From Candidatus Bipolaricaulota bacterium (GTDB lineage Bacteria; Bipolaricaulota; Bipolaricaulia; UBA7950; UBA9294): a stretch of DNA of 33,385 nt. The stretch is taken from assembly GCA_030603215.1 (NCBI GenBank), contig JAUVYF010000009.1:1-33385 (forward strand). Direction: 5' to 3'. Made by a program: the position numbers and the translations under genes. Every line of letters begins with the position of its first letter. Position 1 is the first letter of the stretch. This document shows, one piece after another, positions 3,949 to 30,327 of this stretch. A model generated the notes under the pieces. It did no database searches. It was not told the DNA's origin and worked only from the letters and a program-made list of their open reading frames with translations.

Positions 3949-4111
3949 CCGATAAGGAATCTGGCAGAGGCTCGAAAAGCTGTCTGCTGTCGTATTCTGA
4001 CAGGCCGGTAAGTAGGAAAACATCTTCTTCATTCCTCTTAACCGCAGAGGAGGCAGAGGAAAGCAGAAAAGGAAGTTATTAGTTTTCAGTTATGAGTTAT
4101 CAGTTGAACCC

Positions 4112-4220
4112 AAGAATATGCAGACCGTGTGTAGCGTCGGGGTTCATCCCCGACGTTAAGCGTAACGTAGCAAGAATACGCAGACCGTTCGTAGCGTTGG
4201 AACCTGTGTCCAACGTTAAA
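4112..4220. repeat. Paired hairpin repeat (alpha-beta), copy 1
   Basis: Two hairpin units share the lead-in AGAAT(A)(T/C)GCAGACCGT. The first, 4134-4156, is GCGTCGGGG-TTCAT-CCCCGACGT. The second, 4194-4216, is GCGTTGG-AACCTGTGT-CCAACGT. The same ordered pair occurs twice more at 32.34-32.42 and 32.73-32.81 kb. The second unit has a T-A pair where the other copies have C-G, so the stem is preserved by a compensatory change. Confidence 0.8.
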
Positions 4221-4277
4221 GACAACGTCGCACACCCCAGTGCAATAGGATTGCACAGGGCAGGTAAAGTACGACAC

Positions 4278-4324
4278 TCCCCCTCCCTTCAATTCCCTCC
4301 CTCGATCGGGGAGGGAAGATTGTT
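4278..4324. repeat. 47-bp dispersed repeat with internal inverted repeat, copy 1
   Basis: The segment from TCCCCCTCCC to GAAGATTGTT is identical to 32620-32666. It contains an imperfect inverted repeat, CCCTCC-CTCGATCG-GGGAGGG. No coding capacity is visible. Confidence 0.85.
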
Positions 4325-4349
4325 TAATATTCCTCGCTTTTTGTTTGGT

Positions 4350-4500
4350 AAGCTCTACGAACCCAATGAACCCTATGAACCCTATGAACCCTACGAACTC
4401 TTGTTACCATTCAACCAATCAACCAATCAACTATTTGACTTGTCTTTTCCTTCCCATTCAACCAATCGACCATTCAACTATTGGACTGGTTCATCGCTCT
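4350..4500. repeat. 9-bp tandem repeat and word-like repeats
   Basis: A tandem of the 9-mer GAACCCTAT (variants GAACCCAAT, GAACCCTAC) runs at about 4359-4396. It is followed by CCATTCAACCAATCAACC and related words, similar to 220-330 and 32430-32880. The stretch 3949-4546 as a whole holds only repeats. Just before them, at 4040-4065, is a CCGCAGAGGAGGCAGAGG word. No gene is supported. Confidence 0.75.
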
Positions 4501-4546
4501 TGGCGTCTTGAGTGAGTGAAACGAACGGGGGAGAAATAGAAGAAAA

Positions 4547-4619
4547 TGGGCGAAGCAGGGCTCGAACCTGCGACCTTTCGGATGTGACCCGAACGCTCTT
4601 CCAGCTGAGCTATTCGCCC
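4547..4619 (-). tRNA. tRNA-Val (anticodon CAC)
   Basis: On the minus strand a complete cloverleaf of 73 nt can be drawn. The acceptor stem GGGCGAA pairs with TTCGCCC. The D arm is GCTC-AGCTGGAA-GAGC. The anticodon stem TTCGG/CCGAA holds the loop GTCACAT, giving anticodon CAC. The T arm GCAGG-TTCGAGC-CCTGC is normal and the discriminator is A. CCA is not encoded. It lies 42 nt downstream of rng on the same strand, so it may be cotranscribed with that operon. A pyrimidine-rich run (TTTTCTTCTATTTCTCC) follows the 3' end and could act as a terminator. Confidence 0.96.
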
Positions 4620-4661
4620 AATACTCATAGTCTATTATTCTAGCGCTGATACCCCAGCGGA

Positions 4662-24110: not shown

Positions 24111-26213
<2,103 letters not shown>

Positions 26214-26417: not shown

Positions 26418-27305
26418 TCATTCTAGCAACAGATTGCGAAAGTACTCCAAGCTGCGATAGCTCCACTTCGCGGTAACCTTGGCCAATCCCTCTTGTACAA
26501 GTTGACGCGCACGTTCGCGGCTTATTTCCATCACTCTACCTACTTCGGCCAAAGAGTAAGGTATCCCATCTTCCAGTCCGTAGTGCAGACGCAGCGCAGA
26601 GGCTTGTCGTGCGGGAATGTAGTCGATGATGTCGCGCAGCTCTTCCTGAAAGAGAAGTCGCAGCGCTTCCCTTTCTGGCCCCGGTGTAGTTGTGTCTTCT
26701 AATACTTCTTCCAGTGTCTCTTCGCCACTAGCTCCAACAAGCTGATCCAAGGAACGCAGATCCCTCACTTTTCTCTCGATTTGTTCCAAACGCTCCACCG
26801 AGAGACCACTAATCGTTGTGATCTCTTGTTCATTTGTCTCTGCCTTACCTTGAGACAAGTCTCGAATCTGTTTCAGCTGGCGCAGAGCACGGAACAAGTA
26901 GTCAGGTATACGGATCATTCGCGAGTATTCAGTAATAGCCGAAAGAATAGCACGGCGCACCCACCAAGTCGCATATGTGCTTAACCTATAGCCCCGTTCA
27001 ACGTCAAAGCGATCGATGGCCTCAATCAAACCAAGATTGCCTTCTTGAATAAGGTCAATAAGGTCAACGCCAGAATCAGCATACCCTTGAGCTATCTTAA
27101 CGACTAAGCGAAGATTGGAAATGATTAACCGTTGTCGCGCTCCATCTATTCCTTTGGCCATAGACCGGGCTAGTTTGCGCTCCTCCTCTGCGGTTAGAAG
27201 AGGAAAGCGAGATATCTCACGATAGTAGATCTGCAGGAGATGAGAAACATCCGTTGTTGCTAAGTCCCAGTTCGTCTCCCTTTCTGTTTTTGCCATTGCT
27301 TTCAC
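26418..27305 (-). CDS. RNA polymerase sigma factor, sigma-70 family (short RpoD-like)
   Basis: Directs RNA polymerase to promoters. About 296 residues with regions 1.2 (VSHLLQIYYREISRFPLLTAEEE), 2 (RLIISNLRLVVKIA, DLIQEGNLGLIEAIDRFD), 3 and 4 (SLAEVGRVMEISRERARQL). Region 1.1 is absent. In region 2.4, the helix WWVRRAILSAITEYSRMIRIP differs from RpoD's WWIRQAITRAI at the positions equivalent to E. coli Q437 (Arg), T440 (Leu) and R441 (Ser), two of which read the -10 element. It may therefore be a group 2 or alternative sigma rather than the housekeeping one. Starts TTG 27311, GTG 27305 (AAGG 7 nt upstream, chosen) and ATG 27296 are all possible. It follows pus10 by about 45 nt on the same strand and converges on ligA; the 204 nt between them hold no clear terminator. 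Confidence 0.92.
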   Translation of the reverse strand: MKAMAKTERETNWDLATTDVSHLLQIYYREISRFPLLTAEEERKLARSMAKGIDGARQRLIISNLRLVVKIAQGYADSGVDLIDLIQEGNLGLIEAIDRFDVERGYRLSTYATWWVRRAILSAITEYSRMIRIPDYLFRALRQLKQIRDLSQGKAETNEQEITTISGLSVERLEQIERKVRDLRSLDQLVGASGEETLEEVLEDTTTPGPEREALRLLFQEELRDIIDYIPARQASALRLHYGLEDGIPYSLAEVGRVMEISRERARQLVQEGLAKVTAKWSYRSLEYFRNLLLE

Positions 27306-27349
27306 CGCCAAACCTTACGCAATTAGAACACCTACTTGCAACCATCTGC

Positions 27350-28603
27350 TCAATATGGAAACAGGGACGAGGTTACTTCGACTACATCTAACGCAATGAC
27401 ATGAGCAGCAATTCCAAGGCAACTAGCCAGACTTGGCGCTGTACGACCATTATCACCTGAGACAAGTTCCTTAATGTACAGACCTCCTTCGCTCTTCACC
27501 GTGATGTTTGCCTGATGGGGGGATACTAGCTCTCCTCCGATTTCATGGATCCTGCGAGTACGTGTCAGGTCAGCCCGGCGATGAACAACTCGTTGCGGAG
27601 TTCGCTGTTTGATCTCTCCGACAAGCTTACACAATGCTTCACGCAGGCTACCGCTAGAAATATCGCCTTCAAATGACACCAGCGCCTCATATGTCTTGGC
27701 TGCGCGTATCTCCTTGATCTTCGATACCATCATGCGCGAAACAAACTTCAACTTCCCTATTCTTATCTTGCCTCCTTGCGTCTTGTTAACCTCAGCCTGA
27801 AGCGATACAAGATCCAGCTCACGCCTACGCGGCGAACAAACCTCGAGCACAAATGGCCGGCCGGACCCAAGCATACGAGCATCTATGTCTTCCCGTCCGG
27901 CTCCGTGCAAGTGGCCGCTATTCGAGCCTGCTGCGTCCAGAAATGCCTTTTCCATAAGCTCTTCTACTGATTCTTCGTATTGCTTTCCTGTGGAATTGCA
28001 GTGATCGCATCCTTTGCCCCTGCAGTGACGGCACGGCCAGCGAGTCTGAGGAATCCCACGCGTCAGCTTTTGATACCGCCCGTAGATAAATAGGGAAAGA
28101 ACCCGAAGCTCGATCGTATTCCGGACAAGGTCAATAACAAAGGAAAGATGAGGCTTCTCAATATCAAGCGTCCCATGTGTAACCTGTGCCTCAAATGCTT
28201 TGCCAATCCTACGATTTATCGCGTGTTTGAGTGACTCGGCACGGTTCGTACAGAATCGCTCACTAAACAGCCTTTCCATCTCGATAAGTCTTGGGGTAAG
28301 CTTCACGCCAAATAGGTAACTGTCAAAGTTGATTCCACTAGACAATGCAACAGCACGACTCGCCCAGGAATCCACATCTCTAAGGAAACCCTCACAAATC
28401 CAGCATGAACCCGCTTTATCCTCTATCCCGAGCATAGAAAGTATGATTCGTAGAGACTTCCCGCGCTCGCTGTTCGCAAGACCATGTCCGAGCTGTGCAA
28501 AGGCGCGCCCCAGGCATTCATCACAAATGGCGCCGCTCTGAACGATGTTGGCTGCCTGCGTAAGTACCTTTCCGGGGTCATCACTCCACATTCGCTGGCT
28601 CAC
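27350..28603 (-). CDS. pus10: Archaeal-type tRNA pseudouridine synthase Pus10
   Basis: Pus10 makes pseudouridine 54 (and 55) in tRNA of archaea and is also found in eukaryotes. Bacteria normally use TrmA and TruB for these sites. The 417-residue protein is full length. Its N-terminal zinc site has CDECLGRAF (Cys 27/30) and CWIC (Cys 67/70). A THUMP-like region leads to the archaeal CRHCRGKGCDHCNSTGK ribbon. The catalytic block GAGREDIDARMLGSGRPFVLEV holds the active Asp at about 241. TYEALVSF and the final GLYIKELVSGDNGRTAPSLA block complete the family signature. GTG start with GAGG 5 nt upstream. It sits upstream of the sigma gene, probably cotranscribed. Inference: acquired from archaea or a deep relic. 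Confidence 0.93.
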   Translation of the reverse strand: MSQRMWSDDPGKVLTQAANIVQSGAICDECLGRAFAQLGHGLANSERGKSLRIILSMLGIEDKAGSCWICEGFLRDVDSWASRAVALSSGINFDSYLFGVKLTPRLIEMERLFSERFCTNRAESLKHAINRRIGKAFEAQVTHGTLDIEKPHLSFVIDLVRNTIELRVLSLFIYGRYQKLTRGIPQTRWPCRHCRGKGCDHCNSTGKQYEESVEELMEKAFLDAAGSNSGHLHGAGREDIDARMLGSGRPFVLEVCSPRRRELDLVSLQAEVNKTQGGKIRIGKLKFVSRMMVSKIKEIRAAKTYEALVSFEGDISSGSLREALCKLVGEIKQRTPQRVVHRRADLTRTRRIHEIGGELVSPHQANITVKSEGGLYIKELVSGDNGRTAPSLASCLGIAAHVIALDVVEVTSSLFPY

Positions 28604-29718: not shown

Positions 29719-30327
29719 ATGTCTCTTGAGATAACCCAGGAGGATTTTCTTACGCTTGAACAGGTGTCGAAATTAAAGAACCATTGTAGAGAACGCGCGA
29801 CTAGCAGGGAGAGAAATGCTGTCAGAAACTGGGCTATCCTTCATGTGGCGCTAGATACTGGCTTGCGTGTATCCGAAATCTGTTCCCTTAGGATAGGGGA
29901 TATCATCCTAGGAGAAGAGCATGGCTCGCTAATTGTGCGCGACGGAAAGGGTCACAAGAAGAGAGGGGTCAACTTGGGAGACCCGCTACGGCAGCACTTG
30001 ATCGAGTTTGTTGCCTGGAAAGAGAAAACTGCGCAGTCCATCAGGGCTTCTGCTAGTCTATTCATCTCCTCCCGCGGTGGAGGGCCGCTGACTCGTACTG
30101 CAGTCTACCGGATCTTTAAAACCAATGCATGCGTGCTTGGGTTCCCTTCTCGCTTTTCGATCCACTCCTGCCGTCATACGTACGCTTCACTCCTCTACCG
30201 CGCGTCAAAGTACAATATACGCCTCGTCCAAAAACAGCTCGGTCATCGCTCCATCCAGACAACGCAGGTGTATGCCGATGTGCTGAGTGAAGACGCTGTC
30301 ATTGCAGTAAACAAACTCCCTCAATAG
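29719..30327 (+). CDS. Tyrosine recombinase, catalytic domain only (Xer/integrase family)
   Basis: Site-specific DNA recombinase. The 202 residues cover the catalytic domain with all key residues: Arg in DTGLRVSEICSLR, Lys in RDGKGHKKR, His-x-x-Arg in IHSCRHTYASLL, His in QKQLGHRS, and the nucleophile Tyr in TTQVYADV. The N-terminal SAM-like DNA-clamping domain of XerC/XerD (about 90 residues) is absent. Because AAGGAG lies 6 nt before the ATG, this is the true start and not a broken gene. The nearby 28-bp palindrome is a candidate target or operator. Whether it serves chromosome dimer resolution, a mobile element or an inversion switch is open. No terminal repeats of a mobile element were found. 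Confidence 0.9.
   Translation: MSLEITQEDFLTLEQVSKLKNHCRERATSRERNAVRNWAILHVALDTGLRVSEICSLRIGDIILGEEHGSLIVRDGKGHKKRGVNLGDPLRQHLIEFVAWKEKTAQSIRASASLFISSRGGGPLTRTAVYRIFKTNACVLGFPSRFSIHSCRHTYASLLYRASKYNIRLVQKQLGHRSIQTTQVYADVLSEDAVIAVNKLPQ

Follow-up and report, generated by a model that had tools for sequence, protein, structure and literature searches.

An archaeal-type Pus10 and its partner enzyme TrmY in the bacterial phylum Bipolaricaulota, with a probable archaeal route to the tRNA T-loop

Two reviews state that the pseudouridine synthase Pus10 is absent from bacteria (PMC7912444, PMC9957541), and the abstract of a third paper says the same (PMC5682645). Archaeal Pus10 (COG1258, TIGR01213) is in many Euryarchaeota paired with TrmY (COG1901, PF04013), the archaeal m1-pseudouridine-54 methyltransferase, which works only on tRNA first treated by Pus10 (PMC9508554). 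The Pus10 of P. furiosus makes Psi55 only, and the T-loop scheme of the Thermococcales combines Pus10 for Psi55 with an m5U54 methylase, the TrmA-like TrmU54 (PMC7912444). Bacterial TruB (COG0130), the standard enzyme of bacteria for this purpose, has the same expected product, Psi55 of the tRNA T-loop, the best-conserved modification of tRNA, but belongs to a separate pseudouridine synthase family. The bacterial branch of COG1901 comprises methylases without known function or substrate (PMC5041015).

Here, we have analysed a pus10 gene from a member of the Bipolaricaulota (Acetothermia), a deep-branching bacterial phylum. The window, i.e., the whole stretch of DNA that was analysed, is one entire contig of 33,385 bases, from a genome of 1.74 Mb in 153 contigs that is 87% complete. 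Its Pus10 resembles the archaeal protein in domain layout, cysteine ribbon and invariant active-site motifs, the bacterial proteins are 38-45% identical to archaeal members, and the pairing with TrmY is found in Bipolaricaulota as well. The differences lie in the host, a bacterium lacking TruB and Cbf5-type genes, in the separate clade that the bacterial proteins form, and in one lineage of the phylum that has TrmFO as partner instead of TrmY. The open-licence literature that we searched contains no earlier report of Pus10 in Bipolaricaulota, and we cannot exclude a report elsewhere; automatic annotation has likely named these proteins already.

The pus10 gene and its surroundings

The gene and its parts are as follows:
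27350..28603, minus strand: pus10 gene, 417 aa, GTG start (open reading frame with profile, sequence and fold matches)
28514..28525, minus strand: first CxxC pair (C27, C30), invariant in a 33-row alignment
28394..28405, minus strand: second CxxC pair (C67, C70), invariant in the same alignment
28130..28366, minus strand: THUMP domain of archaeal-type Pus10 (residues 80-158; PF22023, E 1.3e-15)
27374..28090, minus strand: Pus10_C catalytic C-terminal domain (residues 172-410; PF21238, E 1.8e-68)
27998..28033, minus strand: CRHCRGKGCDHC cysteine ribbon (residues 191-202), cysteines at least 90% conserved
27887..27889, minus strand: codon of the presumed catalytic Asp239 (GRED), invariant in 33 Pus10 sequences

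By gene identity, this open reading frame is a complete and true Pus10; its catalytic activity and target positions are inferred. Its score on the Pus10 equivalog TIGR01213 is 482 bits (E 1e-144; cut-off 200), and it carries the GREDID motif at residues 236-241 and the YIKELVSGDNGRT motif at residues 376-388. Asp239, which we take to be the catalytic residue from what is established about Pus10, aligns with the GRED of human PUS10. The latter is the closest solved structure by sequence (2v9k, E 4.5e-34) and the top match of the predicted fold (E 1.3e-34, TM-score 0.76 by query), with other pseudouridine synthases far behind. The structure model, for which 33 relatives from bacteria and archaea were used, has a mean pLDDT of 91.7. 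The protein has no match to the Pfam domain TruB_N, and Cbf5 models reach 22 bits on it, below their cut-offs (238 and more).

Two neighbours matter for the question of whether the gene belongs to this bacterium:
26418..27311, minus strand: sigma-70 family factor adjoining pus10 (Pfam), in a neighbourhood kept in the window's GTDB family (f1)
24111..26213, plus strand: NAD-dependent DNA ligase, ligA (Pfam), near pus10 across the same family

Archaeal contamination or a chimeric contig could in principle explain the presence of pus10: most genomes of the phylum are metagenome bins, and one record (L125) bears a misleading "Thermotoga" title. Against this, RmuC, the ligase and the sigma-70 factor near pus10 are all confirmed by Pfam and are bacterial genes, and the gene order around pus10 is conserved in the family. 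The ligA and sigma-factor surroundings were found again in seven other genomes of that family; hence, the contig is not chimeric at pus10. Furthermore, the gene occurs across the phylum in separate genomes that include two single-contig ones (G004 and G005), and the clade formed by the bacterial sequences is their own. Contamination is thus all but excluded, and we treat pus10 as a gene of the bacterium. The initial annotation had proposed an intact Pus10 in this open reading frame, flanked by bacterial sigma factor, ligA and rmuC genes. Both claims held, with every named motif found and the position exact, and the chimera at 27.3-28.6 kb that it had named as a refutation is excluded by the conserved bacterial neighbourhood.

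Some minor observations concern the same records. The apparent Thermotogota carrier of Pus10 (L125, DYGJ01000072.1, titled Thermotoga sp.) was rejected as such: its Bipolaricaulota-type Pus10 is 81% identical to that of Bipolaricaulota genus g17 and nests inside it, and the record is probably a mislabelled genome bin. Two IMG/VR matches to Pus10 were disregarded, as their alignments are limited to 21 residues of the cysteine ribbon. At 29719-30327, some 1.1 kb from where pus10 starts, the window encodes a tyrosine recombinase of only 202 aa (Phage_integrase). The open reading frame at 4092-4511, with the low-complexity repeat YEPYEPYEPYE, is probably no real gene and lies beside a tRNA-Val gene.

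Distribution of Pus10, TrmY, TruB and TrmA in the phylum

Pus10 is present in 85 of 100 Bipolaricaulota genomes and in 36 of 39 genera. Among the 38 genomes of at least 90% completeness, 35 have it. The 15 genomes without a match are very probably incomplete bins for the most part, but a few of them exceed 90% completeness (G007, G055 and G083). A contig scan gave at least 576 relatives, of which only the best 80 were retained. The only survey outside the phylum concerned ten bacterial control genomes, none of which has Pus10.

The enzymes expected in a bacterium were sought in the same 100 genomes. TruB was found in none of them, either by TIGR00431 or by PF01509, two independent profiles that were each positive in 14 of 14 control genomes. 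Methylases of the TrmA/RlmD type (PF05958) were likewise found in none above the cut-off; weak PF05958 matches of at most 22 bits were discounted. In bacteria, truB usually follows the infB-DUF503-rbfA operon. This operon is present in the phylum, with truB missing from it (infB and DUF503 were named by reading of the open reading frames). Of the 100 genomes, 86 encode TrmD, which makes m1G37 in bacteria; in this respect at least, tRNA modification has remained bacterial. A search of other genomes of the phylum and a check for the absence of truB and trmA had been proposed by the initial annotation, along with an archaeal-style T-arm enzyme standing in for TruB and TrmA. Both checks were run, and the proposal is supported, with activity inferred, on a wider scale than suggested, that of the whole phylum. 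Pus10 proving common in ordinary bacteria would have counted against it; on this point we have only the ten negative controls.

Two further observations can be made on gene content. In G061 (family f9; L212, L213), the distance from pus10 to rbfA is about 5 kb; both genes share a strand, and pus10 is upstream of infB. Strong matches to TrmI/GCD14, the m1A58 methyltransferase, are almost confined to family f3 and a few genomes of f6 and f9. The genus of the window gave no match, strong or weak, so that A58 may be methylated in some lineages of the phylum and not in others.

TrmY, a companion that the initial annotation had missed, is present in 79 of the 100 genomes, including that of the window:
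10535-11101 of contig C74 of the window's genome (G000): trmY (profile match)

This copy scores 206 bits on the TrmY equivalog NF002560, against a cut-off of 183, and the phylum's TrmY passes that cut-off in the members tested. TrmY of Bipolaricaulota matches M. jannaschii MJ1640 at 131 bits and Vibrio VC_A1059 at 56 bits. This preference matters because the bacterial branch of COG1901 has no known function. The copies of the window's family differ from archaeal TrmY by a C-terminal addition of roughly 75 aa, with weak similarity to DUF2007 (E 0.008). This extension was seen in family f1 (L181:2036-2860, which is G000:C74, and L182-L187) and not in copies from other families. The distance between pus10 and trmY is no more than about 14 kb in family f9 (G061:C3, L212/L213; G064:C51, L214).

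The proposed T-arm pathway and genus g20

Gene identity, phylum-wide presence, the absence of TruB and TrmA, the presence of TrmY and the tree positions given below are shown. From these we infer that TruB and TrmA/TrmFO have very probably been displaced by an archaeal T-arm pathway, Pus10 followed by TrmY, which would yield Psi55 and probably m1Psi54. That the enzymes are active, at which positions they act, that the two genes were transferred together and in what order genes were gained and lost are likewise inferences, made without tRNA chemistry. A likely substrate is encoded in the window itself:
4546..4620, minus strand: tRNA-Val gene, T-loop TTCGAGC, with U54 and U55 (tRNA search)

U54, U55 and C56 are found in 24 of 24 distinct tRNA genes in the Bipolaricaulota DNA examined. 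In the proposed mechanism, Pus10 would bind tRNA via its THUMP-containing N-terminal part and isomerise U55, and in most lineages U54 too, through Asp239. TrmY would then convert Psi54 by methylation into m1Psi54, which is isosteric with m5U54 of bacteria.

Genus g20 departs from this arrangement. TrmFO, the bacterial m5U54 enzyme, is above the cut-off in seven of its eight genomes and in no other genome of the phylum, and TrmY is absent from all eight. In the rest of the phylum, TrmFO matches are weak, fall short of the cut-off and align with part of the model only; we read them as related FAD proteins, which is an inference. The Pus10 of g20 has changed at sites that are at least 97% conserved among 131 Pus10 sequences (P185A, Y209A/S and E254K/S/T), with zero to one changes at such sites in twelve other Pus10 clades. 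Two of these positions, P185 and Y209, are located in the stretch from the GRY motif to the catalytic Asp. By analogy with P. furiosus, the Pus10 of g20 may have been freed from acting on U54; with TrmY lost and TrmFO present, it would be expected to yield Psi55 only. This inference rests on a correlation in one evolutionary event. Like the Thermococcales, g20 combines Pus10 with an m5U54 enzyme and lacks TrmY, but its enzyme is the folate-dependent TrmFO and not a TrmA-like one. These genomes offer a direct handle on the residues that enable Pus10 to act on U54.

One could object that Pus10 replaces TruB only, giving Psi55 alone, and that the TrmY homologues have a different RNA as substrate; tRNA position 54 would then not be m1Psi. 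The product of the P. furiosus enzyme, the bacterial methylases of unknown substrate in COG1901 and family f4, which has Pus10 without TrmY, all speak for this reading. We consider it unlikely, since Bipolaricaulota TrmY fits the archaeal equivalog and MJ1640 and not the Vibrio homologue, and since TrmY is missing exactly where TrmFO occurs. Such mutual exclusion is expected if both enzymes serve position 54. We thus favour the two-enzyme pathway. A bolder version of it, which we regard as likely with the modifications themselves inferred, is that the entire phylum makes its T-loop the archaeal way, with Psi55 and m1Psi54 and without TruB or TrmA/TrmFO, and that g20 and the halophiles of f4 are natural experiments. 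If Pus10 and TrmY have taken the place of TruB and TrmA/TrmFO, the archaeal nucleoside m1Psi54 is predicted in bacterial tRNA. The extent of this replacement across the phylum would mean that transfer between domains, followed by fixation, is possible for a core tRNA modification pathway related to folding.

Origin of the bacterial Pus10 and the halophiles of family f4

The Pus10 tree was built without long branches, and its root was not inferred. Bipolaricaulota Pus10 from all families except f4 make up a single clade (support 97/98), sister to Halobacteria among the Halobacteriota with moderate support (79/91). The TrmY of the phylum is nearest Halobacteria too, weakly (TrmY clade 29/75), in a tree with archaeal TrmY from named loci and without row L194 and the divergent copy L180. 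The initial annotation had left the choice between lateral gain and an old retained gene; the tree favours the former. We consider an old lateral gain of archaeal pus10 near Halobacteria likely, with the donor and the root resting on limited archaeal sampling. In this scenario, an early member of the phylum would have gained pus10, probably with trmY alongside, from an archaeon related to Halobacteria/Methanosarcinia, and TruB and TrmA/TrmFO would then have been lost, an order that is inferred. Joint transfer of the two genes is possible, as a weakly supported inference.

Alternatively, Pus10 could be an ancient gene that was already present in the ancestor shared by bacteria and archaea, was kept in Bipolaricaulota and disappeared from other bacteria. 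Its phylum-wide presence, with mostly vertical descent within the phylum, fits this reading, and in the absence of an inferred root the main bacterial clade stands opposite all other rows on one branch. The reading is nonetheless unlikely: the main clade is placed beside Halobacteria inside the Halobacteriota, not outside archaeal diversity, TrmY has the same neighbour, if weakly, and Pus10 is missing from the bacterial controls. Lateral gain remains the preferred explanation.

Bipolaricaulota Pus10 as a whole does not have a single origin, which is rejected with p-AU 2.6e-4 (log-likelihood difference 88.6), and the exception, also missed by the initial annotation, lies in family f4. TrmY was found in none of its six genomes, and TrmFO in none above the cut-off. 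Two sequences, of G044 and G046, have an uncertain place in the tree and bacterial neighbour genes. The Pus10 of G042, G043 and G045 are closely similar. Trees that include two of these sequences put them with Nanohaloarchaea (100/100), and the change P250E is common to all three and to Nanohaloarchaea. The nanohaloarchaeal-type pus10 is flanked by bacterial frr and F-type ATPase genes (by reading of the open reading frames), and these neighbours argue for a second acquisition and not for contamination. It is therefore likely that this halophile subgroup re-acquired Pus10 from Nanohaloarchaea; its own Pus10 would have been swapped for the nanohaloarchaeal one, with no detectable TrmY. The Nanohaloarchaea examined have no TrmY either. 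One record of this subgroup (L106) has an isolate name beginning with GSL, which we take to be Great Salt Lake.
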